Origin: a virus | Strand: one strand, 5' to 3' | DNA length: 25,562 nucleotides | Virus record (IMG/VR): IMGVR_UViG_3300009515_000023 | Location: 1-25,562 of that record | Shown: in pieces, positions 1,420-25,302 of the stretch | How the letters are laid out: the number at the start of each line of letters is the position of its first letter | Numbering within the stretch: the stretch's first letter is position 1 | Notes under the pieces: model-generated | Databases searched by the model: none | Told to the model about the DNA's origin: nothing | Seen by the model: only the letters and a program-made list of their open reading frames with translations | Program-made: the position numbers and the translations under genes

Positions 1420-2436
1420 TTAGTAACTATCCCCTAGGTTGTAGAGATTGCGCTGGCGTGAAGATTGGGGATCGCCGAAGTCTGGGACAATTTGGGTGAT
1501 GAGGTTTCGAGGACGTCTGCTATACCATAGCTCCGTCACACTATTGCTAAACTTGGACTCTTGGGCTTGGGCCGCAACTTCCTGCCCATCTTCCCAAAGG
1601 GCGTCGGCCACCACGCCCTCCACTATCTCGTTGGCACAAGGAATGATTGGGGAATCATTGTCGTTGGTGAGGGGAAGCCAACGTTTCTTGTACCACACCT
1701 GGGCGGTGATAGCGGAGGCGGGTGTGACCGAAAGGCGAATCCATTTGTAATATGGGGAACGTTCGTTGGGGGATAGTTTGGCGATGATATTAGCGGGGGT
1801 TGTTTTCTCACGGACAGTTACAACTCCAGCAAGGTCTTGGAGGGAGCCGTCGGATGTGCCCGCGCTAATAGTTAGCTCCGCCCCAGAATCAAAGGTGTTG
1901 GTGGAGTCCACTGCCGTAATGCCTGTAAGCGTGATGGATTCCGACACCGGCATACCGCTGACTTCCCCAGTGATGCGGATAACCATGGGTGTTACATCTG
2001 AAGCGGAGGTGGATAACACTTGCACCTTATCGGCAGTGGATAGGAGAGCAGAGCAGGACTTAGACCCGATGTCGATGTATTGATCGGGATTTCCTGTCTG
2101 AACATTTCCAGAGACTTCGAGATTTATGGCGTTAAATCTCACATGGTCTCTAATGTCTAAGGCCGTTATCTCCTTCCCATGCGTCGTGTCCCAAATCTTG
2201 ATGATTTGTTCAAGATCGTACCGAAGGGAATAATCACGAGTGTTAGCAGTAATAGAGAGGTTATAGCTGCGATTAAGCTCATCCCAGGGGAAGCTCCTTA
2301 AGATTCTGTCATAGCGTGTGCGACACCAATCCTTGACTTTTGGAAGGAGGTCGTTGGCATTGGAGGTTGAGGTGCTGGTGTTTTGCACCAAGGCCATCGC
2401 CCTGACTTGTATACGCTTGAAAGTATCGTTTATCAT
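1420..2436 (-). CDS. Head-tail adaptor (gp4/gp11-like connector)
   Basis: A 338-aa protein with the usual features of podoviral adaptor proteins: an alpha-helical N-terminus (residues about 15-55, including 'RILRSFPW'), then a beta-rich section, and a C-terminal 'QVWYKKRWLPLT' strand region followed by a long helix rich in Ala/Glu. Residues about 130-205 look like a small Ig-like insert ('ITGEVSG', 'ESITLTGITAV'), common in this family. It would sit under the portal and join head to tail. ATG 2436 has no clear Shine-Dalgarno and lies 5 nt after the stop of the preceding 58-aa gene, so coupled translation is likely; an in-frame ATG at codon 14 has AGG 4 nt ahead and is an alternative. The gene is followed within 2 nt by the LamG tail protein. 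Confidence 0.75.
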   Translation of the reverse strand: MINDTFKRIQVRAMALVQNTSTSTSNANDLLPKVKDWCRTRYDRILRSFPWDELNRSYNLSITANTRDYSLRYDLEQIIKIWDTTHGKEITALDIRDHVRFNAINLEVSGNVQTGNPDQYIDIGSKSCSALLSTADKVQVLSTSASDVTPMVIRITGEVSGMPVSESITLTGITAVDSTNTFDSGAELTISAGTSDGSLQDLAGVVTVREKTTPANIIAKLSPNERSPYYKWIRLSVTPASAITAQVWYKKRWLPLTNDNDSPIIPCANEIVEGVVADALWEDGQEVAAQAQESKFSNSVTELWYSRRPRNLITQIVPDFGDPQSSRQRNLYNLGDSY

Positions 2437-2627: not shown

Positions 2628-3113
2628 TTACGCCGCCTGTCCGACAGTGGTTCCAGATGCAATCGTCATGCGGTTGCCAAATTGATCCTCGAAGGTCGCT
2701 CCGATAGTCCCAGCAGAACCGTAGTCAGCGTCTGATGGATTAATAGTCGCTGGAACCCAATGTTGGACGACGCCCGTTGTCGGGCATTCGATGGAAAACT
2801 CCCCGCGAAGGCTATAGAAGTTAGAACCTTGTCCGGCGTCTGTAAATTGCCCAACCATCCTATAGGCATTGCCCCCGCCAGTACCTATGGCCTGTCCCTG
2901 TTGTGTGCGCGGGCGAAAGGTGAGCTTGTAGCCGTCGGTGGTGGTAATAGGCGTTTGATTAACGGCCAGATAATACCTAACATCCGTCGTGCTATTATCA
3001 TCAATGCGAAGTTGGAATGTTTGGGCGTTTGTAACCTGATGGCCGATACCCGTTGAATCGATGTAGTTCCATTCGCCGGTATCGATTGTAACCGTGCTAT
3101 TGACTGTCGCCAA
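2628..3113 (-). CDS. Beta-rich putative virion protein (161 aa)
   Basis: Starts at TTG 3113 with a strong AGGAGG 5 nt ahead, and ends 9 nt before the next gene. The sequence is rich in Thr, Gly, Asn and beta-strand pattern, has no Cys pair or enzyme motif, and reads like a small head-fibre, decoration or tail protein ('TIDTGEWNYIDSTGIG' at the N-terminus; 'GTIGATFEDQFGNRMTI' near the C-terminus). It is the first gene after the carbohydrate cassette and before the adaptor, so structural use is likely. Family not recognised. Confidence 0.6.
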   Translation of the reverse strand: MATVNSTVTIDTGEWNYIDSTGIGHQVTNAQTFQLRIDDNSTTDVRYYLAVNQTPITTTDGYKLTFRPRTQQGQAIGTGGGNAYRMVGQFTDAGQGSNFYSLRGEFSIECPTTGVVQHWVPATINPSDADYGSAGTIGATFEDQFGNRMTIASGTTVGQAA

Positions 3114-3122
3114 GATAACCTC

Positions 3123-3905
3123 CTAGAAAAAACGTTTTTGCGCTATCAAATGTAAATCGTCCCATATCGGGAATCGATGCTCGTAGTTTTGACGAGCCAT
3201 AATCACATTGAAGCCTAGTTTTTCTAGGTGGGAGGATAGGCTCCTCCTATTCCACATGAGGTAATTCTGCTCCGGCTTCCAGTGGATGAAGCAGGCCGAG
3301 GAACGGGTGTTAATGAAATCAGTATCAGGTGTTCCTATAAACATCATACCATCTTCAACAAGTAGTTTATGGCAAAGGGCGAGAGAGCCGATTGGATCAG
3401 AGAAGGCTTCAAGAGTGTGGTATATCCAGATGAGGTTATATTTGATGTCGGCTGGGAATTGATGGGTCTCAAAGTCATCGGCTATGAGGTTTCCCCCTGT
3501 CTTGAATGAGGTATTCTTATCGATAATGGTGGGAACCCATCCCCTATGGGCGAGGGCGTCTTCTTGATAGGTATTGGAGCGTCCTATGATTAAGACTCTC
3601 CTGCCATATATCATCTCCTCAATAATAGGCGCATAGATACGCACTGGATAGCTATAGGATGCCTCCAACTTCTTATCATACCTACTTCGTTCATCCCAGT
3701 ATTTGGCGTCGTATAGGCCGAGGGGCTTGGTGGCTTGGAAGACTATGCCACAGGAGCAGGTAAACCACCTTGAACGCTTCTTGGTATTGGCGTCTTGCAT
3801 GTAGTAGGTATGGGAGACGTAGGAGGAGCAAACAGGGCAGTTGGCTACCTTCAAGTCCCCTATTTCAATGGGATCTGCGTTCTTTTTAAGATTTAGCATA
3901 GACAT
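3123..3905 (-). CDS. Zn-ribbon class I SAM methyltransferase, copy B
   Basis: A 260-aa protein with an N-terminal zinc site (C23-x2-C26 ... C50-x-C52) and a Rossmann methyltransferase core. The SAM-binding region near residues 103-108 reads 'VLIIGRS' and lacks the usual GxGxG. The post-motif region 'YNLIWIYHTLEAFSDP' and 'MMFIGTPD' fits class I carbohydrate or small-molecule methyltransferases. It is paralogous to the 6402-7190 product: same zinc layout, same 'W..xQ.Y.MW' block and a similar C-terminus. It overlaps the end of the GT9 gene upstream by about 20 nt. The first ATG (3905) and a second at 3899 are both possible; AAGG lies 6 nt before the second. Substrate unknown; a sugar added by the adjacent GT9 is the natural guess. 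Confidence 0.75.
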   Translation of the reverse strand: MSMLNLKKNADPIEIGDLKVANCPVCSSYVSHTYYMQDANTKKRSRWFTCSCGIVFQATKPLGLYDAKYWDERSRYDKKLEASYSYPVRIYAPIIEEMIYGRRVLIIGRSNTYQEDALAHRGWVPTIIDKNTSFKTGGNLIADDFETHQFPADIKYNLIWIYHTLEAFSDPIGSLALCHKLLVEDGMMFIGTPDTDFINTRSSACFIHWKPEQNYLMWNRRSLSSHLEKLGFNVIMARQNYEHRFPIWDDLHLIAQKRFF

Positions 3906-4857
3906 CCTTAAAGTGAGAATAGACTGTTTCTAGTGGGAGACCTGCTCCCATACAAAGGGCGGCCCCCGTTTCATGCGTAGGGCACTGGAGCTTCATATCG
4001 TAGATTAGGAATAGGCATGGGGCGCAAGGGGCTAGGGACGGCATGGCCTCGATGGAGTAGTCATTAGAGAAATACTTGGTGATACACTCTCTGGTGTTAT
4101 GGCCGAGTAAGCAGATTTTGGGGGTGTCATAACATCCACTGGCATGGATGATCCCAGTGTCCGGGGCGATGACTAGGTTGACTAGTCCAGTGAGGGCCAT
4201 GCTGATACGCATTGGAATATTGCCTGAGAGGTTAGTAATACGCCCCTCGATAACCGGCTCAATAATCTGGCATTTGAGATCGCCAACGGTGATAATGTGG
4301 ACATCCGGGTAATCCTTACATATTTGCTCGCAGAGAGATTCGGTGTAGGGCCATGCTTTGTTGTTTCCACTACCGGACATGCCGATTAGAATGTTGTAGC
4401 CGGGCTTTAGATACTTCTTAGCCTCCTGGATTTCACCATCCTCGAAGAATAGCTCTGGCCTAAGATTAACCCCCTTCCAATCCTCCTTGCAATGCTCAAA
4501 GGAGTATTCGTAGAAATTGCGATTAAAACGGGAGAGGCGTTCAAACTTTGGGAGCTTGTAGTCCGGCCCTCTTGGATGTTGGGAGAGAGCCACCTCTATG
4601 GATTCGCTGAAGTCTATAACTCTCTCACAATGATTTTTGCGTTGTAGCCACTCAATATGATCAGATAACGCCTCAATCTTAACATTCTCATCGTGTTGGA
4701 TAAGTTTATGAATATGGGGATTACCCTTAAGAACCTCCATCCCGCGCTTAGAAGTCACATAGGTAATCTCATGGCCTTGGGAGTGGAGGTGGCGGATGAT
4801 GGGGGTGGTAATCAAGACATCCCCATAGGCCCCGGATCGGAAGATTAAGATTCTCAC
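3886..4857 (-). CDS. GT9 (heptosyltransferase-like) glycosyltransferase, copy B
   Basis: A 323-aa protein of glycosyltransferase family 9, the group of ADP-heptose:LPS heptosyltransferases. Seen: N-terminal 'RSGAYGDVLITTP' (residues 7-19), the phosphate-region loop 'GMSGSGNNKAWP' (159-170) and the donor-binding 'APDTGIIHASGCYDTPKICLLG' region (231-252), which is the most diagnostic GT9 block. GTG start at 4857 shares the GTGA overlap with the GT2 stop, showing operon coupling. GT9 enzymes act on the cytoplasmic side of the inner membrane. The true donor (heptose or another sugar) cannot be read from the sequence. Paralogue of the 7165-8154 product. Confidence 0.85.
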   Translation of the reverse strand: MRILIFRSGAYGDVLITTPIIRHLHSQGHEITYVTSKRGMEVLKGNPHIHKLIQHDENVKIEALSDHIEWLQRKNHCERVIDFSESIEVALSQHPRGPDYKLPKFERLSRFNRNFYEYSFEHCKEDWKGVNLRPELFFEDGEIQEAKKYLKPGYNILIGMSGSGNNKAWPYTESLCEQICKDYPDVHIITVGDLKCQIIEPVIEGRITNLSGNIPMRISMALTGLVNLVIAPDTGIIHASGCYDTPKICLLGHNTRECITKYFSNDYSIEAMPSLAPCAPCLFLIYDMKLQCPTHETGAALCMGAGLPLETVYSHFKDVYAKS

Positions 4858-5645
4858 TTCTTATATACCTCGAACAATAGCTTCCCCCATGTTTTCGCCT
4901 CACCATCAAGAGGCATGTGGGCCATAATTTGAGCGTAGTCGAGACCGGCCAACTTCTCTAAAAACTTCTTTTGATCTTGATCTACACTCACCCCGTTCGA
5001 ATGAGTTGTCACGCTCAAATGGTGGATTACTTTCGACTTAATTGAAAGTATGACTTTCCAATGGTTAATCTTGGCCCAGAGGCAATAAGAGGAATCAGAA
5101 CAATGATTCCTAAAGCGTTTGTCCAGAAGCCCGATTTCCCTTATCATGGACATCCGAAGAAGGCCGGAACATAAAGGAACCCAGTTTACCTCCATAGATT
5201 CAGGGGCTTTGGCCAAGTCTTTTTCATCAACAAAGTATTGATACCCACGAATTAAATCCGACCCGCATAGCTCGTACTTCTGCTCCCTCGACGGATGTAT
5301 TCTTGTGGAAGCCACAATGCCTATATTCTCATCTGTCTGCATGATTTTTAGAAGCTCTGCCAGGAAATCAGGCTCAGGTTCGGTGTCGTTATTAAGAAGG
5401 AGGATGTATTCATATCGATCCCCGCACCAAAGGATTCCTTGGTTTGTCGCGGCAGTAAAACCGGAGTTCTTATCAAGACGAAGAACATCGATGGTATCAT
5501 CTACGAATGGGGTTTCAGAGCCGTCATCAACGACGAGGATGGTCAGATGGCAGTCAGTAAGGCCATGATTGGCCTTCACAAGCTCCACACATTTTCTTGT
5601 GTAGCTTTCCTTGCCATACATCGGAATAATACAAGCTATCGACAT
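4854..5645 (-). CDS. GT2 family glycosyltransferase
   Basis: A 263-aa GT-A fold glycosyltransferase. Residues 1-45 give the nucleotide-binding strand and 'VVDDGS' (38-43); 'NSGFTAATNQGI' (60-71) and 'LLLNNDTEPEPDFL' (82-95) are the classical GT2 rhamnosyl/glycosyl transferase blocks with the metal-binding acidic pair. I place the start at ATG 5645 because it gives the usual 'MSIACIIPMYG' N-terminus and a 10-nt overlap with the preceding gene; a longer frame to 5708 lies inside that gene and lacks a family match. It likely transfers one hexose or deoxyhexose from a nucleotide-sugar. Acceptor unknown. Confidence 0.85.
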   Translation of the reverse strand: MSIACIIPMYGKESYTRKCVELVKANHGLTDCHLTILVVDDGSETPFVDDTIDVLRLDKNSGFTAATNQGILWCGDRYEYILLLNNDTEPEPDFLAELLKIMQTDENIGIVASTRIHPSREQKYELCGSDLIRGYQYFVDEKDLAKAPESMEVNWVPLCSGLLRMSMIREIGLLDKRFRNHCSDSSYCLWAKINHWKVILSIKSKVIHHLSVTTHSNGVSVDQDQKKFLEKLAGLDYAQIMAHMPLDGEAKTWGKLLFEVYKK

Positions 5646-6421
5646 TTGTATAATGCCTCGAAGAAAGCCGCCCTCATATGATGTTGTCCTACATAAAGCG
5701 GACTCCATGATTCCCTAACAGGGTAATCATCCATAGCCCAATCAATCCCATCTTCATTGATGTGGGTCTCCTTCCAACAGGAATAGTAGAAATAGGAGGC
5801 ATGCTTATCGGCGTAATCAAAGTATGACTCTACCTGATCTTTTGTCATTTCATGGAGGCAATCCATGGCTAGGAGAATATCGCACTGGCCTTTTAATTCA
5901 TTCGGGGGGTGGAAGGTAACAGGATGCCCTGGAATAACATTTCCAAGATACCGCTTGGCAAGGCTTAAAGAAGGCTCTACATCAAACATCCTATAAGTCA
6001 AATTCGGATACAATTTAGTCAAAATAAAAGGTATCCTTCCATACCCGCCTCCTATTTCGTGGATAATATTCACATCATTAAAATCGATATATTGGGAAAG
6101 TCTTGTGTATTCTGAAATCGTTGCGACTAAATCCAAACTTACAAGACGGCCCCTATACTCAATAGCAAGCGGATTTCCCTCAAGAGGCTCATAAAACTGA
6201 TCTAAAAACTTATCAGGATAGATGGAGTATAGCTTGTCCCATATGGCCCTAACCTTATCATTGTAATCTTGAGACAAGCTCTGCTTGTCATAATCATAGA
6301 AATAATCATTGTAGAGAAACAGCCCTATTGTTCTCTTGAAATTCTCATAGCCGTATTTATCAAGAAATTCATTCGCGCGCGAATTAAGAAGAGTCCAGTA
6401 TTTAGAAGGGGTATAGGTCAT
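5636..6421 (-). CDS. Putative sugar O-methyltransferase (NanM-like)
   Basis: A 261-aa protein with a helical N-terminal domain and a SAM-binding core: 'IIHEIGGGYGRIPFIL' (119-134, intact Gly-rich motif I), 'MFDVEPSLSLAKRYL' (145-159) and 'LLAMDCLHEM' further on. This arrangement, with the long helical lead and 'YIDF' before motif I, resembles the bacterial 'putative sugar O-methyltransferase' family found in polysaccharide clusters. ATG 6421 is chosen: it overlaps the upstream stop by 20 nt, while the longer frame needs a GTG at 6451 and a 50-nt overlap. It would methylate a hydroxyl on a sugar of the glycan built by its neighbours. The methyltransferase call is firm; the sugar substrate is inferred. 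Confidence 0.75.
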   Translation of the reverse strand: MTYTPSKYWTLLNSRANEFLDKYGYENFKRTIGLFLYNDYFYDYDKQSLSQDYNDKVRAIWDKLYSIYPDKFLDQFYEPLEGNPLAIEYRGRLVSLDLVATISEYTRLSQYIDFNDVNIIHEIGGGYGRIPFILTKLYPNLTYRMFDVEPSLSLAKRYLGNVIPGHPVTFHPPNELKGQCDILLAMDCLHEMTKDQVESYFDYADKHASYFYYSCWKETHINEDGIDWAMDDYPVRESWSPLYVGQHHMRAAFFEALYKCR

Positions 6422-7190
6422 AGGGTTTCTTGAATAAAAGGTGCATATCACGAAGGGGGCGAACGTCGAAGTTCCTCCTCTTGATTTTAGTCTTAAAACC
6501 GATGGCTTCTGCCTCGTCGCAAAAGCTATCCATATCCCACATGATGTAATGTTGCCTTAGAATCCAATGCGCCCACAAGTTGGGGCTGGCCCAATCTATC
6601 TGAAATGGATCTGGCATGGAGATGAAGAGGATACCGCCTTGGTTGAGCATGTTAAAACACTTCTTTAAGGCTTCCAAAGGATAATGAATATGCTCAAAGA
6701 AATGGTTGGCTACTATAATGTCGAATTTCTCATCGATGACATCCTTGTCGAAATCCGCTTGAATGAGACGATGAGTTGATGTATGCGGGGCAATATCAAG
6801 GCCCACCGTCTCATAGTTATACTCTCTTGCCTCATCGAGGAAATAATCCACGACATATCCGAGGTCTAGGATCTTCTTTCCGCAATTTCCGTTTAGGAAG
6901 AAGTCACGCATATAATGGCGAAAAAGAATTTGGAGATGGTCTCTATAGCCGTCCTGCTTATGATCCTCTGTATACTGCGGGTTAAAATAGCTCCCCTGAT
7001 CTATATTCTCCCAGTTGGTATACCAGATATTTTTGCAGTTGCAGAAGGAGTAGCCCCTATCATGGGTAGGATGTGCTTCTCTATTTACAATGACCGTTCC
7101 ATGAACGACAATCGGCTTCTTTCCTCCGCAAAATGGGCAGGCTTGTAAGCACCAAGGCTCAACATCAGGCATTTGCAACGCTATGCTCAT
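6402..7190 (-). CDS. Zn-ribbon class I SAM methyltransferase, copy A
   Basis: 262 aa. Zinc-type cysteines C18-x2-C21 and C50-x-C52 precede a methyltransferase core: 'KILDLGYVVDYFLDEA' (106-121), 'VGLDIAP' (129-135), 'FDIIVANHFFEHIHYPLEAL' and 'GGILFISMPDP'. The motif-I glycine loop is degenerate (only one Gly where family members have two or three), as in copy B. ATG 7190 lies behind GGAGG (short 3-nt spacing) and overlaps the GT9 gene by 26 nt. Copy A and copy B each directly follow a GT9 gene, so methylation probably follows that transfer step. Confidence 0.78.
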   Translation of the reverse strand: MSIALQMPDVEPWCLQACPFCGGKKPIVVHGTVIVNREAHPTHDRGYSFCNCKNIWYTNWENIDQGSYFNPQYTEDHKQDGYRDHLQILFRHYMRDFFLNGNCGKKILDLGYVVDYFLDEAREYNYETVGLDIAPHTSTHRLIQADFDKDVIDEKFDIIVANHFFEHIHYPLEALKKCFNMLNQGGILFISMPDPFQIDWASPNLWAHWILRQHYIMWDMDSFCDEAEAIGFKTKIKRRNFDVRPLRDMHLLFKKPYDLYPF

Positions 7191-8154
7191 AAGCCTCCTC
7201 TACTTTTGCCATAATTTTATCCTCATCGAAAAATACGCATAGAGGAAGTCTCTCTTTGGTTGGACAGCCATAGTATCGTTGCGGGGATTTATGGCACGGT
7301 GAGCAATAAGCCTCCGACTGAACCCAATAGGCGTTATTGGCGTACTTGATGTGGTTATCCCATGAGGCCGCCGTTAGAAGTTGAATAGTTGGGGTGTCCC
7401 AGGAGTGGGAGACGCAGACTAGCCCTGTCTCTGGGCTTATCACCAAATCGAAGTATTTAGACATAAGGGCAACCGTCCTAAAATTCCACACAGCAACCTT
7501 TGAGGATACTCTTTCATGCTCAAATACATCCTCTAAGCAATCTTTGTCCCCAGTCAATACAATAGAGGCGTCCTTGTACTTTTCGAGAATCTTGTAAGCG
7601 ACACTTTTGGCCTGCTGGAATCTCTTGTGGAGGGAAGAACCGGATAGGCAGATTAGGATTAGATAGGTTGAGTTAGTCTTCTTCTTATGATTAGCTATCC
7701 ATGCTTCCGCGTCTTTATGACACCCATCCCCATAATATAGTTGTCCTCTTGTCCCAAAATAAGACTCTGGAAGTCCGCATGCCTCGGTCATCACATCGTA
7801 ATAATTTATATTGCCAAAATTCTCACGTCGATATTTGTCGTTTCGATAATAAGCCATGTCCGTTTCAAGAAGACAATAACCACTCTCTATTGTGTGCATG
7901 AGGTTAAAGAACATGTCATAGGAATCTTTGTGATAATTCCATCGAGAGATAAGCTCCCCATTTGTCACTTTGTTTGTATCAATGTGATAGAGCTTATCGA
8001 TGAATGGATTTCCAAGAAGAATATCTATGCCACGATCAGATGTCTCAAAGGTTACATGGTCTACCTTGAAATGTTCCTTGATGAGCTTGGGAAGATGGGA
8101 GCAATGCATCATGTCGCCGTATGCTCCGTATCTTGCGATTAGGCAGGTTTTCAA
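7165..8154 (-). CDS. GT9 (heptosyltransferase-like) glycosyltransferase, copy A
   Basis: A 329-aa family-9 glycosyltransferase. Seen: 'ARYGAYGDMMHCSHLPKLI' near residues 7-25, 'GNPFIDKLYHID', 'CLSGSSLHKRF', and the donor-site block 'SPETGLVCVSHSWDTPTIQLL', followed by a Cys-rich tail with 'CSPCHKSPQRYYGCP' that may bind metal. Copy B has an equivalent Cys-rich tail ('CAPCLF'). The start is TTG 8154, overlapping the TGA of the C-methyltransferase as TTGA, with AAAGG about 10 nt upstream. The donor sugar is not readable from sequence. Confidence 0.82.
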   Translation of the reverse strand: MKTCLIARYGAYGDMMHCSHLPKLIKEHFKVDHVTFETSDRGIDILLGNPFIDKLYHIDTNKVTNGELISRWNYHKDSYDMFFNLMHTIESGYCLLETDMAYYRNDKYRRENFGNINYYDVMTEACGLPESYFGTRGQLYYGDGCHKDAEAWIANHKKKTNSTYLILICLSGSSLHKRFQQAKSVAYKILEKYKDASIVLTGDKDCLEDVFEHERVSSKVAVWNFRTVALMSKYFDLVISPETGLVCVSHSWDTPTIQLLTAASWDNHIKYANNAYWVQSEAYCSPCHKSPQRYYGCPTKERLPLCVFFDEDKIMAKVEEAYEHSVANA

Positions 8155-9335
8155 ACGATTTCGGCCTTTGGAATAGGGATAATGTAATAGGCGTTTAGGT
8201 GCTTGGTTTTAGCCATAAGCTCACTTGCGAAATTCCAAGCAAGGAGAATGATGTAGTCGGGCTTCTCCTTCTCAAAGTGGCTAAAATCCACAATGGGGAT
8301 GGCTTCCCCAGGGGTCATTTTGCCTTGCTTATCCGGCGTATCATCCACGATGCTTTTAATATAGCGTCCGAGGCCGAAGTAATTGATGAGACTAATCCCC
8401 TTGGCGGATGCCCCATATCCCATAATCTTGGATGATTTTAGGTTCTCCAATACCTGGATAAGACGGCTTCCCATCTCAAAAACTCTTGTGGCAAAATCAA
8501 CATAGGTGGATAGATGATAGAATCCCTCAGACTCCTCATCGGAAAGCATCTCCATGATTGAGTCCTCTCTTTCATAGTAATTCTTGGAAGCGTAGATTCG
8601 AATAGAGCCTCCATGGATGGGGGTTCGTTCTACTTTGAAGATGGGCAGGCCGACAGAGGCGAAGAGATTATTGAGAGGGTTTAGGAGAAAGTAGGATAGA
8701 TGTTCGTGGTAGATGGTGTCAAATTGATTGCCTTTAACCAAGTCCATCATGTAGGGGAATTCCGCAACAAATACCCCATCATCTTCCAAGAAATATTTGA
8801 CCCCGTTTAGGAAGTCGTGAAGATCATCGACATGGGCTAGGACATTTTGGGCAACGATGAAGGATGCTCCTTGGGCTGACTTGTCTCTATAGAACCTAGC
8901 CGTATCCTCTGACCAAAACTTATTCGCGCATGGGAAGCCTTTGCGTATACATTCAGACGCTAGGTTTTCTGAAGGCTCAATTCCAAGGAATCTATTAAAG
9001 CCGATCGATCGGGCTTGCTCCATGAAACAGCCGTCATTTGAGGCAATATCGACGATGAGGGGGTTGGGGGCCATCTTTAAACCTTGGAGCTTCATAGCAA
9101 GTTCTCTGCAATGCAGCTTGAAGGTATTGGAGATGGAGGAGTGATAGGGATAGTTGGAATAGAGGTATTTGGGTTCGACGACAACGCTTAGTTGCGATAG
9201 GTAGCAATCCTCACAAACCAATACCTGTATGGGAAACTTCTTCTTGGATTCGAGGTTATTGGCGGGGGGGACTTCGCCGAGATAGAGATAGGGGAAAAGA
9301 TTAGGGGACTTACAAGCCCTGCACATTGTAACCAT
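8151..9335 (-). CDS. TylC3/TcaB9-type sugar C-methyltransferase
   Basis: A 394-aa three-domain enzyme. Residues 5-45 are the zinc-binding domain (C5-x2-C8 and a second C-x2-C near 41-44, with 'LGEVPPANNL' between). Residues about 85-240 are the SAM domain ('LIVDIASNDGCFMEQA', 'GIEPSENLA', 'QNVLAHVDDLHDFL'), followed by 'YHEHLSYF', which carries the Tyr/His residues used in catalysis in this family. The C-terminal Rossmann-like domain has 'GYGASAKG' and 'IVDDTPDKQGK'. Family members C-methylate dTDP-4-keto-deoxysugars. ATG 9335 has AAGGAG 6 nt ahead. It is the first gene of the carbohydrate cassette, about 60 nt after the preceding virion gene. No keto-sugar synthesis genes are in this window, so the substrate must come from the host or from elsewhere in the genome. 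Confidence 0.85.
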   Translation of the reverse strand: MVTMCRACKSPNLFPYLYLGEVPPANNLESKKKFPIQVLVCEDCYLSQLSVVVEPKYLYSNYPYHSSISNTFKLHCRELAMKLQGLKMAPNPLIVDIASNDGCFMEQARSIGFNRFLGIEPSENLASECIRKGFPCANKFWSEDTARFYRDKSAQGASFIVAQNVLAHVDDLHDFLNGVKYFLEDDGVFVAEFPYMMDLVKGNQFDTIYHEHLSYFLLNPLNNLFASVGLPIFKVERTPIHGGSIRIYASKNYYEREDSIMEMLSDEESEGFYHLSTYVDFATRVFEMGSRLIQVLENLKSSKIMGYGASAKGISLINYFGLGRYIKSIVDDTPDKQGKMTPGEAIPIVDFSHFEKEKPDYIILLAWNFASELMAKTKHLNAYYIIPIPKAEIV

Positions 9336-9362
9336 CCACTCTCCTTTTTGGAGTTAGATGAT

Positions 9363-9388
9363 GGGGGTGAGGTTTTATCCCCACCCCC
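9363..9388 (-). other. Hairpin between capsid block and carbohydrate cassette
   Basis: Left arm 9363-9372 and right arm 9379-9388 pair over 10 bp around a 6-nt loop; the single plus-strand mismatch becomes a G-U pair in minus-strand RNA. There is no U-run after it on the minus strand, so it is a poor intrinsic terminator; an mRNA-stabilising or processing hairpin that lowers expression of the cassette is equally possible. Confidence 0.5.
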
Positions 9389-9398
9389 ACCAATTTAC

Positions 9399-9797
9399 TT
9401 AGTTATCGTTGACCTCAAAGGTCTCACGATACTCAACATTTGCCTGAATCGTCTGGTTCGGATCAGCCGTGCTTAGAACTGATCTAAGCGTAAGCGTATC
9501 GCCAGCCGTGAGGCTCGTTTCCGTCACAGAGCCTTCAACAGTCGTACCTGCCGTGGCATTGGTAGCGAATGTTAAAGTGCCGAGTGCCGTGGTTCCTTTA
9601 GCAAGCACCCATTGGGACGTTGCGCCAGAACCGGCAACATTAGCGACGATATTCCAGTCGGTAATGGTAACAGGGTACATGACCGTAATAGTCTGCACCA
9701 AGGCCGTGGCACGAGTCCCGCAGGTAGCCTGCGTGAACTTAAACACCTTCTTACTTCCATAAGAAGGATCGGAGTAACTTCTGCCGCCTTTAGACAT
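9399..9797 (-). CDS. Small beta-rich virion protein, possible capsid decoration
   Basis: 132 aa, starting at ATG 9797 with AGGAGG 9 nt ahead, 18 nt after the coat gene stop. Very Thr/Ala/Gly/Val-rich with alternating strand pattern ('TITVMYPVTITDWNIVANVAG', and a C-terminal 'IQANVEYRETFEVND'). No enzyme motifs. A gene of this size directly after the coat protein is usually a decoration or minor capsid protein in phages. Family not recognised; its Ser/Thr richness would also suit a glycosylated surface protein, but that is speculation. Confidence 0.6.
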   Translation of the reverse strand: MSKGGRSYSDPSYGSKKVFKFTQATCGTRATALVQTITVMYPVTITDWNIVANVAGSGATSQWVLAKGTTALGTLTFATNATAGTTVEGSVTETSLTAGDTLTLRSVLSTADPNQTIQANVEYRETFEVNDN

Positions 9798-9815: not shown

Positions 9816-10763
9816 TTATAGAGAGTTAACTGTGATAATGCGAGTCTGGCCGTCTGCCTGGCCATTTAGGATACCCGATTGGCTCCAAACCTGTTGGAAC
9901 CCAAGAAGGGCGTACCAAGCAATCGCCTGATCGCGTCCGAAGTCCGTGGGGATACCCACTCGGATTTCTTCAGGAATTGCTACGCCTTCACGAACAGCGT
10001 CAGCACCGAAGAAGCAGGCTTCTCCGTACAAGCCATTGCTTCCATCAGTGTTCGAGAGGAAGTTTGTTTCCTCAACGAAGCGACAGCCGTAGTAGCGACC
10101 GACTTCCCCGATGTAGAGGGGGTCGAGGGACGTCTGTTGGGCCTTAGCTTCGAAGAAGTCATAAAGACCTCTGATGCTATTGGTGGAGGCGACGCAAACG
10201 TACTGGTCATCATCGCGACGAGGGACAAGTCCCTTTTTGAGCTGATCGATGATGTCACGCACGTTCTTGTCCGACATGTTGGCTCCGGCGGTGGCGTTGG
10301 CCGTACCGCTGGTTCCAAAAGTCGTGGTGGCCGTATTGGTGATGGTAGCGATATAGTCGTTGGTCATAAACTGCGTTGCCGCAGCCGAGTCCAACACAAC
10401 TTTCATATCGTTGGTCAGAACGGTTCTAACCGTCTCAGGAACTTGAACTTCAGAAAGTGTTTTAACCTTCTGAGTATACGGAATTGAATTACCATATTCC
10501 GTCATCGTCAAGGTTCCCTGAAGGATAGTATAGTTCCTTTTAGGAATCGTGTCTGTTTCAATCAACGTGCCACCGGCGGTGGAGATGTTCGAGATTTTAT
10601 TAAAGAACACCTTGTTACCGCGGTTTGCGCCAGCCGCCGCTTCAATATCGACAAATTGCCGAAATTTCTGCATCGTCTGGGCCTTATAGCGCAGTTGTTG
10701 AGACAGAGAATCATTTTTGAAAAACCCGCCGAGCGAGTTTATCGAAAATAGCTGTTGTCCCAT
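9816..10763 (-). CDS. Major capsid protein (N4-gp56/P22-like coat family)
   Basis: 315 aa. The N-terminal arm with 'LRYKAQTMQKFRQFVD' (24-39), 'GNKVFFNKISNI' (48-59), the helix-strand pattern through 'TVRTVLTNDMKVVLDSAAATQF', and the diagnostic C-terminal block 'YIGEVGRYYGCRFVEETNFL' fit the N4-gp56 family of HK97-fold coat proteins. It starts at ATG 10763 behind GGAG (6 nt) and follows the scaffold gene by 12 nt, the normal scaffold-coat order. It forms the icosahedral shell. High confidence in the role, moderate in the exact family. Confidence 0.88.
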   Translation of the reverse strand: MGQQLFSINSLGGFFKNDSLSQQLRYKAQTMQKFRQFVDIEAAAGANRGNKVFFNKISNISTAGGTLIETDTIPKRNYTILQGTLTMTEYGNSIPYTQKVKTLSEVQVPETVRTVLTNDMKVVLDSAAATQFMTNDYIATITNTATTTFGTSGTANATAGANMSDKNVRDIIDQLKKGLVPRRDDDQYVCVASTNSIRGLYDFFEAKAQQTSLDPLYIGEVGRYYGCRFVEETNFLSNTDGSNGLYGEACFFGADAVREGVAIPEEIRVGIPTDFGRDQAIAWYALLGFQQVWSQSGILNGQADGQTRIITVNSL

Positions 10764-19955: not shown

Positions 19956-20072
19956 ATGAATAAAAAACTTGTAAGCAAACTCATGGCGCAGTTGGGCCGT
20001 ATTAAATCGGAGAAGAAAGCAAATGCATCTCGTAAGAATGGAAAGCGCGGAGGTCGTCCAAAAAATAAATAA
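19956..20072 (+). CDS. Small basic protein ending 'GKRGGRPKNK', 38 aa
   Basis: ATG 19956 to TAA 20070-20072. The Lys/Arg-rich C-terminus 'SRKNGKRGGRPKNK' is a pattern common to many tiny phage and bacterial proteins that may touch nucleic acid. Its 3' end lies under the start of the HNH gene. Confidence 0.5.
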   Translation: MNKKLVSKLMAQLGRIKSEKKANASRKNGKRGGRPKNK

Positions 20073-20481
20073 ATGTTGGGGGTGGACTGGTTATGTAAAT
20101 GCTAGGGGTTATGGAAGTTTTAATTATTCAAGATTTGATACACCAAAAAGAATTCATAAATTAGTTTATGAATCTTTCAGCGGATTAAAAGTTCCAATTG
20201 GGATGTGTATAGATCATTTATGTAGAAATAGAAAATGCATAAACCCATTCCACTTTGAAATAGTTACTCCGGAAATAAACTGTTCTAGAGGGATAGGAAT
20301 ACCAGCTATTAACGCAAGAAAAAATTATTGTAAAAGAAATCACCCACTAATTGGTTCAAATCTAAAATTAAGAGTAAGAGAAAAGGATGGTAATAAGAGG
20401 ATAGAGAGAAGTTGTAGAGAGTGCAACAAAATGCACTTAAAGAAATGGCGAATTAATATACACAAAAGGGGGTTGGCGTGA
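20023..20481 (+). CDS. HNH endonuclease (HNH_3 type)
   Basis: 152 aa. The start of the domain is 'CWGWTGYVNARGYGSF' (18-33); H45 in 'RIHKLVYE', 'IDHLCRNRKCINP' (63-76) and F/H77 give the His-Asn-His core, and C67/C72 with C103-x3-H107 and C131-x2-C134 are zinc ligands. Such genes are usually free-standing homing endonucleases. The sequence is AT-rich (18 G+C of 60 at 20281-20340) compared with later genes (43 of 60 at 20881-20940), marking it as a recent arrival. ATG 20023 has GGAG about 10 nt ahead; ATG 20038 is also possible. Confidence 0.85.
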   Translation: MHLVRMESAEVVQKINKCWGWTGYVNARGYGSFNYSRFDTPKRIHKLVYESFSGLKVPIGMCIDHLCRNRKCINPFHFEIVTPEINCSRGIGIPAINARKNYCKRNHPLIGSNLKLRVREKDGNKRIERSCRECNKMHLKKWRINIHKRGLA

Positions 20482-23720: not shown

Positions 23721-24201
23721 TTTCAAGCTCCGTGATTTGTCTTTCGATTTCGTCAAGTCTCTCGTGGTAGGTTTCCAAAAAATTGTAGTCCTTGGCTGTG
23801 TAAATGAAGTACTGTAACGCCCAAAAAGAGTCTAATTCGTAGAATTTCAGGCAATTTCTGGAAAATTCATCGATTAGAGACGATTTAAGGCGGTTGTAAT
23901 TTTCGTTTAGGGACTCCAGGTAGTAGTTTCTCTGAGGTTTGCGATCTGTAAGATTAAGCCCAAAGGCCTCGTTTACCCAAGCAATAGATTCTTTGAATGA
24001 AATGCCTTTGACTTCCATTACCAGGTTAAACAAATCCCCGCCCTTGGCGCATACAAAGCAGTACCATAAATCTTTGTTTATCGTCATGGAGGGGTTTTTG
24101 TCCGGGTGTAGCGGACAAAGGGCTTTGCGCCCATTGACCGCCACACCTAGAGCTTCACAGACCTCGGATAGATTTATTCTACCTTTGATCTCTTCAACCA
24201 T
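23662..24201 (-). CDS. CHC2 zinc-finger primase fragment (no TOPRIM domain)
   Basis: 179 aa. Residues 1-60 are the DnaG-type CHC2 zinc domain: C29-x2-H32, then C48-x2-C51 inside 'CPLHPDKNPSMTINK' and 'LWYCFVCAKGGDLFNLV', which recognises template DNA in DnaG. Residues 60-179 are helical and charged, with no TOPRIM acidic motifs. So it has the DNA-binding half of a primase only. Overlaps the helicase start by about 59 nt and the upstream gene by 1 nt, so the two are co-expressed and probably act together. Whether it is complete or a split piece is unclear. Confidence 0.85.
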   Translation of the reverse strand: MVEEIKGRINLSEVCEALGVAVNGRKALCPLHPDKNPSMTINKDLWYCFVCAKGGDLFNLVMEVKGISFKESIAWVNEAFGLNLTDRKPQRNYYLESLNENYNRLKSSLIDEFSRNCLKFYELDSFWALQYFIYTAKDYNFLETYHERLDEIERQITELENARTNLRRNPPSTKPGRGF

Positions 24202-24908
24202 CAGCCGTCTGAACCGGGTTCTTCGTCGTGGATCTTTGCCTCGGCTGGTTTAAACGCTTCCCACATCTTCTCGGCTTGCTGGAATTCCTTGCCTTCAGCC
24301 GGGCCGGAGTATAAAACGTCAAAGGTAAACCAGCTACCCATGTCGTTTTGTTTTTTCTTGGTAGTGAGGCGGTACTTATTTGAGAATAAGTCTCCACCCT
24401 TGAACGTCGCAAGCGAAAGGAGGGTTTTCCCCGCTTTGAAGTTCGTCCCGCCGAAGGAGATCACAACCGGGCAGTCCTGTCCATCGAAAATAGACAGGAA
24501 ACAAAGGAAAGTTGTCGCCAGTGGCGGCAAATCCCCTTCCCAAACGGTGTCGGAGGCCAATCGGATGTCGTTTTTGTCCATGGTGTTGTAGATCACATCC
24601 CTTGGGCCGTATCCGTCCGTCCATCCCCGATCTCCTTCCTTGTTGGCGTTGAAGCGTATCCACTGTTTGAAGTACGAAACAGGGATAAACTTCTCCGGGA
24701 GAATTTCCTTGGTCACGGAGTTTATGATTACCCCAGGATGGATTCCAGCCTTTAGAAGCGCAGGGTCTTGCATCTCAGGAGACATGGCTTCGATCTTCTT
24801 CGCTCGTGGGATGATTAAATCACTTCTGTCTGTGGAGTTCTCTAAGCCCCTCGGCTTAGATGCTTGTGCTTGCAGGTGACTCTGGGCTTGCTTTACTAGG
24901 TCTGACAT
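24201..24908 (-). CDS. Putative ssDNA-binding protein
   Basis: 235 aa. The N-terminus 'MSDLVKQAQSHLQAQ' with 'GLENSTDRSDLIIPRAKKI' (20-38), then a beta-rich core ('GGTNFKAGKTLLSLATFKGGDLFS', with Gly and aromatic residues) and an acidic C-terminal tail ('KIHDEEPGSDG') are typical of phage single-strand-binding proteins with an OB-like fold, where the acidic tail recruits partners. I recognise the general family pattern but not a named member. It lies between the primase fragment and the coiled-coil protein in the replication block. Confidence 0.6.
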   Translation of the reverse strand: MSDLVKQAQSHLQAQASKPRGLENSTDRSDLIIPRAKKIEAMSPEMQDPALLKAGIHPGVIINSVTKEILPEKFIPVSYFKQWIRFNANKEGDRGWTDGYGPRDVIYNTMDKNDIRLASDTVWEGDLPPLATTFLCFLSIFDGQDCPVVISFGGTNFKAGKTLLSLATFKGGDLFSNKYRLTTKKKQNDMGSWFTFDVLYSGPAEGKEFQQAEKMWEAFKPAEAKIHDEEPGSDG

Positions 24909-24915
24909 GATTACC

Positions 24916-25302
24916 TCACTTGGTTGGTCTAGTGGACGGTTTAAACCAATACTCGATAAAATCAGGGATTTCTTTTCCTGTTTCGAGCATTTCCTTCACG
25001 AAACTACTAAGCGTCCTGTGGTGGACTGTCTGTTTTATGAGGTCATCACGCCCTATTTGTTTAAGGTAATCAAATAAGACATCTTCATCTTTTGACCTTG
25101 CTCCCACAAGAGGCTTCATTATGGTGATTCGCCCTATGCCATCATATTTGGCTGTTTGGCTTGCACCTTTTGTTTGTAGTTCCTCTACGAGTTTGTCTTG
25201 CGCTTTTTCGAATCGGTCTTTGGCCTTTTTGGATTCTTCCTCAAGACGCTCGACTTCATCTTTTGCAAGTTTGTACTCAAGAACAAGTTCCTTTTCGGTC
25301 AA
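24916..25302 (-). CDS. Coiled-coil replication-block protein, 128 aa
   Basis: TTG 25302 overlaps the VRR-NUC stop as TTGA, with GGGGG about 9 nt upstream. The first 45 residues are a Glu/Lys-rich coiled coil ('DEVERLEEESKKAKDRFEKA'), followed by a small globular part ('YDGIGRITIMKPLVGAR' and 'YLKQIGRDDLIKQTVHHRTL', with 'IPDFIEYWF' at the end). This shape recurs next to phage SSB-like genes. Function unknown. Confidence 0.65.
   Translation of the reverse strand: MTEKELVLEYKLAKDEVERLEEESKKAKDRFEKAQDKLVEELQTKGASQTAKYDGIGRITIMKPLVGARSKDEDVLFDYLKQIGRDDLIKQTVHHRTLSSFVKEMLETGKEIPDFIEYWFKPSTRPTK

Follow-up and report, generated by a model that had tools for sequence, protein, structure and literature searches.

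A glycosyltransferase and methyltransferase cassette between the capsid and connector genes of an uncultured phage lineage, with a probable role in virion glycosylation

The window analysed here is the whole 25,562-base virus record IMGVR_UViG_3300009515_000023. On its minus strand, read from right to left, replication genes are followed by those for the small and large terminase subunits, the portal, a scaffold-like protein, the major coat protein and a small protein, hd132; seven sugar genes come next, and then p161, a head-tail adaptor and a LamG-domain protein, with a plus-strand block between the replication and terminase genes. The sugar genes are seven tandem open reading frames (ORFs) that fill positions 3123-9335 of the minus strand in the 5' to 3' order CMT14, GT9a, MT3, OMT4, GT2, GT9b and MT7 (Table 1). 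A preliminary description of this DNA counted six genes in its title and seven in its text; seven is the number, and its proposal that genes for assembling and methylating glycans form a cassette among the virion genes is borne out by family matches and by conserved place. Neighbouring cassette genes abut or overlap. Upstream, however, 63 bases carrying two hairpins separate the cassette from hd132, and coupling to the coat and hd132 genes is not seamless. The coupling with the virion operon that had been described is thus seen within the cassette and on its 3' side but not at its 5' end, where, given the strong hairpin after hd132, the cassette need not share the expression level of coat and hd132.

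Both borders of the cassette are found in independent records. Record L001 (13,929 bases) matches the window with 99.993% identity over 13,897 bases, running from 17031 to 3135; it crosses the border at 9335 and ends 12 bases before that at 3123. Both borders are read through in the relatives L008, L009, L013 and L023. An assembly chimera or host contamination, either of which would have undone the preliminary description, is ruled out by the L001 match, the relatives that span both borders and the conserved layout.

Table 1. Features of the cassette and its borders, in minus-strand order.
Feature	Position	Strand	Evidence or remark
Major coat protein, upstream anchor	9816..10763	-	phrog_1357 major head protein, E 3e-14
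hd132, Thr-rich jelly-roll protein	9399..9797	-	AlphaFold2 jelly roll; no Pfam family
Attenuator-like hairpin between hd132 and cassette	9359..9392	-	14-bp stem (G-U counted), loop ATAAAA, no T run
Small hairpin CTCC-AAAAA-GGAG	9341..9353	-	3' arm = ribosome-binding site of CMT14
CMT14, predicted nucleoside diphosphate (NDP)-sugar 3-C-methyltransferase (TylC3/TcaB9 type)	8151..9335	-	PF08421 + PF13489 + PF08484
GT9a, GT9-like glycosyltransferase	7165..8154	-	PF01075 E 0.0011; type varies with hd type
MT3, zinc-ribbon Methyltransf_23 protein, atypical S-adenosylmethionine (SAM) motif I	6402..7190	-	PF13489 E 5.6e-20
OMT4, predicted sugar O-methyltransferase	5636..6451	-	NCBIfam TIGR04371 (putative sugar O-methyltransferase)
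GT2 glycosyltransferase	4854..5708	-	PF00535 E 4.5e-18; rhamnosyltransferase-like below cut-off
GT9b, GT9-like glycosyltransferase, conserved 3' part of cassette	3886..4857	-	PF01075
MT7, zinc-ribbon Methyltransf_23 protein, usual GT9b neighbour	3123..3905	-	PF13489 E 1.9e-7
p161, beta-rich virion protein candidate, downstream border	2628..3113	-	AlphaFold2 pLDDT 76.9; no Pfam family
SU10-type head-tail adaptor	1420..2436	-	PF24175 E 7.9e-9

Based on its sequence, CMT14 is clearly a predicted sugar 3-C-methyltransferase. It has the three-domain layout of the TylC3/TcaB9 class (PF08421, a methyltransferase domain and PF08484, the last at E 1.9e-41), and phmmer aligns it over nearly its full length with the structure 4rv9, a D-mycarose 3-C-methyltransferase that we take to be TylC3 (E 3e-66), and with TcaB9 (E 2e-59). 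The stretch FDTIYHEHLSY is identical in CMT14 and 4rv9 and contains the YHEH-type motif of the class, presumably of functional importance in sugar 3-C-methyltransferases. Unlike these enzymes, CMT14 is phage-borne, and none of the three nucleotide-sugar families searched for (DegT, Epimerase and NTP_transferase) occurs in the window. OMT4 passes the TIGR04371 cut-off (76.5 bits against 44), and GT2 probably starts at the ATG at 5645, which would reduce its overlap with OMT4. GT9b matches the GT9 structure 3tov weakly. Of the GT9-type residues known from WaaC, GD, K and DTGxxH are present in 15/15 GT9b sequences, and GD and K in 42/42 GT9a sequences. Neither GT9a nor MT7 has an NCBIfam match. 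Identity is about 30% between GT9a and GT9b and, over the matched parts, about 28% between MT3 and MT7; a pair made up of a glycosyltransferase and a zinc-ribbon-protein gene may therefore have been duplicated long ago within the cassette. In the seven window proteins the most hydrophobic 19-residue segment reaches 1.45 on the Kyte-Doolittle scale, none exceeding 1.6.

MT3, whose zinc ribbon reads CPFC...CNC, and MT7 had both been described as zinc-ribbon methyltransferases. The ribbons are there and PF13489 matches both window proteins; the glycine-rich motif I (GxG) of class I SAM methyltransferases is not. In MT7 the first glycine is kept and the second missing in 17/17 sequences, and GxG is absent from eight of nine long MT3 sequences, L058 alone having it (L184, whose range held stops, was excluded from these counts). 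A short MT3 form of 145-176 residues occurs in 16 ORFs (14 without near copies), for example L008:13766-14248; it has lost the SAM half and retains the zinc ribbon and C-terminal part. Short forms are found in 14 of the 20 MT3-bearing contigs of the window's clade, the window counted in. At six short-MT3 loci (L004, L008, L009, L012, L023 and L028) a separate Methyltransf_24 or PF04989 gene comes next, at some of the others a GT2 gene does, and in L034:7599-8579 short MT3 and a Methyltransf_24 domain form one fusion protein. Since short MT3 stands beside, or is fused to, other methyltransferases, the zinc-ribbon part looks like an adaptor that would work with interchangeable methyltransferases. 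Given the atypical SAM motif and the frequency of the SAM-less form, the label of methyltransferase is uncertain for MT3 and MT7.

The cassette is the usual layout of this uncultured lineage rather than an interruption of a standard gene order, as it had first been taken to be. Coat searches led to 59 IMG/VR contigs. Once L001, which nearly duplicates the window, and 15 contigs with less than 3 kb past the coat gene are set aside, 42 of the 43 coat-found contigs that read at least 3 kb on carry glycosyltransferase and methyltransferase genes at this same insertion point; the count is 39/40 with near copies collapsed, 55/58 when 15 contigs found through GT9b are included, and 32/32 among contigs that also cover the downstream p161/adaptor border. 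Among 53 contigs with GT9b past the coat gene, MT7 lies within the next two recognised genes in 45, nothing recognised follows in seven, and L196 has a different gene after GT9b.

Across 50,697 phage records GT9a, GT9b and MT7 have no match, CMT14 matches eight and GT2 three, none of these named as a mycobacteriophage, and the coat protein matches 40 at 22 to 41% identity. No cultured member of the lineage was found, the nearest phage records by coat lying at or below 41% identity. Six distant cultured relatives among these 40 (Vibrio 219E41.1 and 1.232.O, E. coli PTXU04 and Bas95, Bacteroides BS162P1 and Streptomyces BRock) have no sugar gene annotated past the coat gene, many genes there being called 'hypothetical'. 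A literature search of titles and the beginnings of abstracts returned no paper on the lineage or on cement-linked glycan modules in phages. We claim no host, since the coat search of genome contigs gave no relative and the bacterial matches of GT9b are weak apart from one of 42% on a 3.75-kb contig of an Omnitrophota metagenome-assembled genome (L067); the others, among the best 80 of 81, reach at most 27% where most of the length aligns and 24-40% where only part of it does. The Omnitrophota-binned contig (L067:1-3752) carries GT9-like, GT9b-like (42%) and zinc-ribbon MT7-like frames and then a long frame with a signal-like start. The window also has a cell-wall hydrolase gene (PF07486) with a hydrophobic N-terminus, which would be compatible with a Gram-negative host.

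The middle enzymes turn over while the coat gene and the GT9b-MT7 pair persist. In relatives the same slot holds GT4- and GT1-type transferases, other GT2s, a hexapeptide acyltransferase-like protein, radical SAM proteins, a GDSL acylhydrolase, Methyltransf_24 proteins and, at four loci, the rhamnosyl O-methyltransferase family PF04989 (E 5e-48 to 2e-55). Within the window's clade (16 rows, L001 included), the coat, portal and adaptor have median pairwise identities of 80%, 77% and 75%; hd132, scaffold and p161 have 55%, 51% and 40%, and the counted cassette proteins 40 to 64%. Amino C-methyl deoxysugars are expected to need DegT, RmlD-like and epimerase partners. A DegT aminotransferase occurs in three of the 29 records searched (L002, L160, where the match shows one stop, and L194), and RmlD-like and epimerase genes also adjoin the C-methyltransferase in these three; the absence of nucleotide-sugar synthesis genes noted in the preliminary description holds for the window, within the three families searched, but not for these three relatives. 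In L047:11335-12759 an MptE-like (PF01973) domain is fused to a methyltransferase within the cassette slot. No PDB sequence matches this protein at E<=0.01; PF01973 is associated with Maf proteins that modify flagellin, a link that would fit glycosylation of proteins.

Turnover at the front of the cassette goes together with the neighbouring hd gene. There are two divergent hd types, hd132 and hd_c13/c20 (hhalign probability 95.9%). Among 69 contigs after collapsing, hd132 occurs with GT9a in 41 and hd_c13/c20 with a GT4 enzyme in 13; no contig is mixed, one has GT9a without a recognised hd, and six have none of these genes. On the coat tree (48 rows) 10 changes of the GT9a/GT4 label are required, of which well-supported branches force at least five; shuffled labels require 10.2 on average, the real label being no more clustered. 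For the tree, the related distances and the first Mantel set below, near copies were collapsed, except that L001 and the window were both kept; the coat distances and tree exclude coat genes that were recognised in two or more pieces. Single pairs show the same pattern. L019 and L024 are alike in coat (96% identity), portal (80%), GT9b (78%) and p161 (80%) but not in hd (16%), whereas L045 and L169 are far apart in coat (62%) and portal (38%) but close in hd (89%), GT9a (91%) and MT3 (91%). Based on the lack of mixed pairs, the repeated switches and these two contrasts, hd and the front of the cassette behave as one exchangeable module.

Partial Mantel correlations with hd, given coat, agree with this: they were 0.74 for GT9a (n=36), 0.10 for GT9b (n=39) and 0.16 for MT7 (n=34). 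Without the duplicate rows L001 and L172 they were 0.73 for GT9a (n=34), 0.76 for CMT14 (n=17), 0.57 for MT3 (n=30), -0.01 for GT2 (n=18), 0.07 for GT9b (n=37), 0.13 for MT7 (n=32), 0.21 for scaffold (n=44) and 0.17 for portal (n=35).

The protein encoded by the linked gene is likely a cement or fibre protein, based on its modelled fold and its place right after the coat gene. hd132 is rich in threonine (25 of 132 residues), and its AlphaFold2 model is a jelly roll with a predicted local distance difference test score (pLDDT) of 81.3 and a predicted template modelling score (pTM) of 0.74. Structure matches from the VIA aligner include the capsid chains of KHP30 (Z 8.7, root-mean-square deviation (rmsd) 4.1, 116 residues aligned), Pam1 (Z 7.8, rmsd 4.5, 124 aligned) and GP4 (Z 7.6, rmsd 2.9, 114 aligned), all of which we take to be cement proteins, and the trimeric cement protein of KHP40 (Z 8.2, rmsd 4.1, 110 aligned). 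A tail fibre of phage 7-7-1 ranks above these (Z 10.2, rmsd 5.9, 119 aligned); TNF-like, spore-coat and other viral jelly rolls also match, and a Z near 8 can reflect a common fold. hd132 is accordingly a candidate glycan acceptor and not an established one. Homology between hd132 and the small post-coat protein of the cultured Vibrio and E. coli relatives was considered and found no support (hhalign probability 0.1%). At the other border, p161 is syntenic in relatives, and its model has no PDB match at E<=0.001.

The hd/cassette junction is itself structured. In the 70 bases after the stop codon, folding with z < -2 is found at 35 of 46 loci after hd (L015, L033 and L057 omitted), against 1/32 after GT9b, 0/22 after MT7, 1/32 after GT9a and 13/53 after coat. 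Of 19 loci chosen in the window's clade and aligned, 18 have an uninterrupted stem of 11 to 16 pairs (G-U counted) after hd, with differing sequences. Some junctions (e.g. L014, L041, L050, L056 and L059) have a T run as in an intrinsic terminator, but the window and others do not; a consensus terminator scan of the window returned 19 sites against 16.4 expected, and the junction hairpin was not among them. The arms of the smaller hairpin at the ribosome-binding site vary in the clade between CTCC/GGAG, CCTC/GAGG and CCTT/AAGG. In its alignment, pairing is seen in 79.7% of 74 cells and changes on both sides in 16, values that 0/500 shuffles equalled for either measure; the number of pairs with two-sided changes (3; 301/500 shuffles) and of pair types (4; 500/500) is not above shuffles, and one of the four pairs has no compensation. 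On our reading, the hairpins may attenuate expression, and less of the enzymes than of coat and hd would then be made. In two relatives a tRNA-Thr (TGT) gene lies in this junction (L012:4433-4508 and L013:8492-8564), and the window's hd132 is Thr-rich.

Some further features of the region were recorded. Group I introns (RF00028) lie inside the coat gene in L051:6455-6711 and L060:6443-6700, and a gap of about 0.6-0.8 kb, near residue 30 or 92, also interrupts the coat match in L020, L047, L049, L053, L054, L055, L057 and L058; the seven of these eight that were scanned gave no Rfam hit, L057 lying outside the scan. Elsewhere in the window, an HNH endonuclease gene lies at 20023-20481 (+) in the plus-strand middle region, and two genes of Pam3-named families (gp34-like and gp33-like) stand beside primase genes at 24201-25302 (-).

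The nearest precedent appears to be that of the Corndog/cluster O mycobacteriophages. There, an O-methyltransferase, two glycosyltransferases and a putative N-acetylglucosaminyltransferase lie between the portal and protease genes (PMC4351075), and enzymes of this type are said to modify the capsid and tail tube (PMC11600133, PMC12619734). Like Corndog (gp35 O-methyltransferase, gp36-gp38 glycosyltransferases), the window has glycosyltransferase and methyltransferase genes inside the run of virion genes (PMC11600133, PMC4351075). It differs in that the genes lie between coat/hd and the connector instead of between portal and protease, and, by descriptions rather than sequences, in its GT9 and GT2 families, 3-C-methyltransferase, zinc-ribbon proteins, hd-linked module swaps and junction hairpins. 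What is new here is the turnover of the middle enzymes, the joint switching of hd and first glycosyltransferase, the junction hairpins and the loss of the SAM half of MT3. A functional parallel, by description only, is the chlorovirus PBCV-1, a eukaryotic large DNA virus with N-glycans, whose own glycosyltransferases and methyltransferases (A064R, A061L) build a methyl-capped glycan on a capsid protein (PMC5408694, PMC9614988).

We consider it probable that the cassette is a phage-encoded virion glycosylation locus: its transferases and methyltransferases lack membrane parts, are fixed between the coat/hd and connector genes, and are exchanged with hd. The preliminary description had offered two readings of late expression, virion glycosylation and the capping of host surface sugars, and the former fits best. 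Under the latter, the enzymes would act late in infection on lipopolysaccharide (LPS) or exopolysaccharide, altering or capping it to keep released progeny from being trapped or to exclude superinfecting phages. GT9 enzymes are best known from LPS core assembly, GT9b resembles LPS heptosyltransferase models and GT2 resembles rhamnosyltransferases (weakly, all far below cut-off), and GT9b has the bacterial relatives described above, at 42% on the Omnitrophota contig and more weakly among the best 80 of 81. Temperate phages can convert O-antigen with GtrABC modules, comprising a membrane flippase, GtrA, and membrane-bound transferases. The window shares with these the possession of sugar-transfer genes, and GT2 weakly matches phrog_841 (GtrB-like, E 1.8e-5), but its proteins have no membrane-strength segment, GtrA (PF04138) and Acyl_transf_3 are found in 0/29 records, which may be fragments, the cassette keeps its place among capsid and connector genes, and hd changes type together with the enzymes. 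Host surface modification is therefore unlikely. That the glycosyltransferases instead decorate phage DNA bases is very improbable: such a role is known for phage glycosyltransferases (PMC12619734), but no thymidylate-synthase-type family occurs in the 29 records, which may be fragments, and the cassette sits with capsid and neck genes rather than with those for replication.

Several observations weigh against virion glycosylation or its link to hd132. GT9a scores 18.8 bits for PF01075, under the 22-bit cut-off, GT9b is exactly at it (22.0 bits), and in GT9a E replaces D in 39/42 sequences, with the His present in 1/42. Segments above 1.6 do occur in 18 of 239 cassette ORFs of relatives, 13 of them GT9b. 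Exceptions to the layout are L050, a cut contig with no methyltransferase, L196 and L198, and in L059 the GT9b-MT7 pair lies 7-9 kb upstream of coat. Eight contigs have hd132 with neither first enzyme, two of them long (L052, L196) and six short (L005, L011, L016, L030, L038 and L049). CMT14 (0.76) and MT3 (0.57) also track hd, and in rows without CMT14, MT3 does so at least as well (0.63 against 0.47 for GT9a). In rows where CMT14 lies between hd and GT9a (n=15), GT9a gave 0.69 and CMT14 0.01, but this contrast is gone without the window, L003 and L006 (-0.16 and 0.00; n=12), and we dropped it as a means of separating acceptor matching from block recombination since it rests on those three rows. 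Exchange of a block between homologous coat and GT9b flanks may explain the joint switching of hd and first enzyme too. To our knowledge, the lineage has no isolate.

It is thus quite possible, if short of an even chance, that the virion is glycosylated but hd132 is no special partner, the coat-to-GT9b block being swapped by homologous recombination and the acceptor being the coat protein, p161 or a tail protein. L019 and L024, which differ in hd between similar coat and GT9b genes, fit this, as does the tracking of hd by CMT14 and MT3, and the mycobacteriophage acceptors reported in PMC11600133 and PMC12619734 are capsid and tail tube subunits. The 41 and 13 unmixed contigs over at least five switches count only weakly against it, as a block swap predicts the same.

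From the observed genes, their conserved place, turnover, joint switching and hairpins we infer enzyme activities, an acceptor, expression level and timing, and a benefit, and virion glycosylation might proceed as follows. Coat and hd132 would be made in bulk, and the cassette, lying on the same strand beyond the attenuator-like hairpin, would be expressed less, in catalytic amounts. Cytosolic GT9a, or the GT4 enzyme in relatives, would begin glycan synthesis on a virion protein, of which the cement-like hd132 is the likeliest, and GT2 and GT9b would lengthen the glycan. CMT14 would make a C-methyl sugar nucleotide from a host-made NDP-4-keto-sugar, and OMT4, perhaps with MT3 and MT7, would methylate the chain. 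Exchange of middle enzymes between phages would then yield particles with different glycan coats. As a tentative and rather doubtful extension, the slot from hd132 to GT9b may be a capsid serotype locus, in which a cement protein and methylated-glycan enzymes travel as a module between conserved flanks (coat; GT9b-MT7), near-identical capsids switch their surface glycan wholesale, and the hairpins set the level of enzyme against cement; it would resemble the switching of bacterial O-antigen or capsule loci.

Phage virion glycosylation has been shown in few systems, chiefly mycobacteriophages. If our reading is true, a whole environmental phage lineage would dress its particles with methylated sugars and swap this coat by module exchange, with the involvement of three enzymes (GT9a, GT9b and MT7) that have no match in the phage records searched. 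A candidate protein acceptor would be at hand for the soluble-looking GT9, GT2, and C- and O-methyltransferases of the locus. Natural pairs such as L019 and L024 would then allow tests of what capsid glycans do for phages, be it shielding, adhesion or escape from host or grazer factors.

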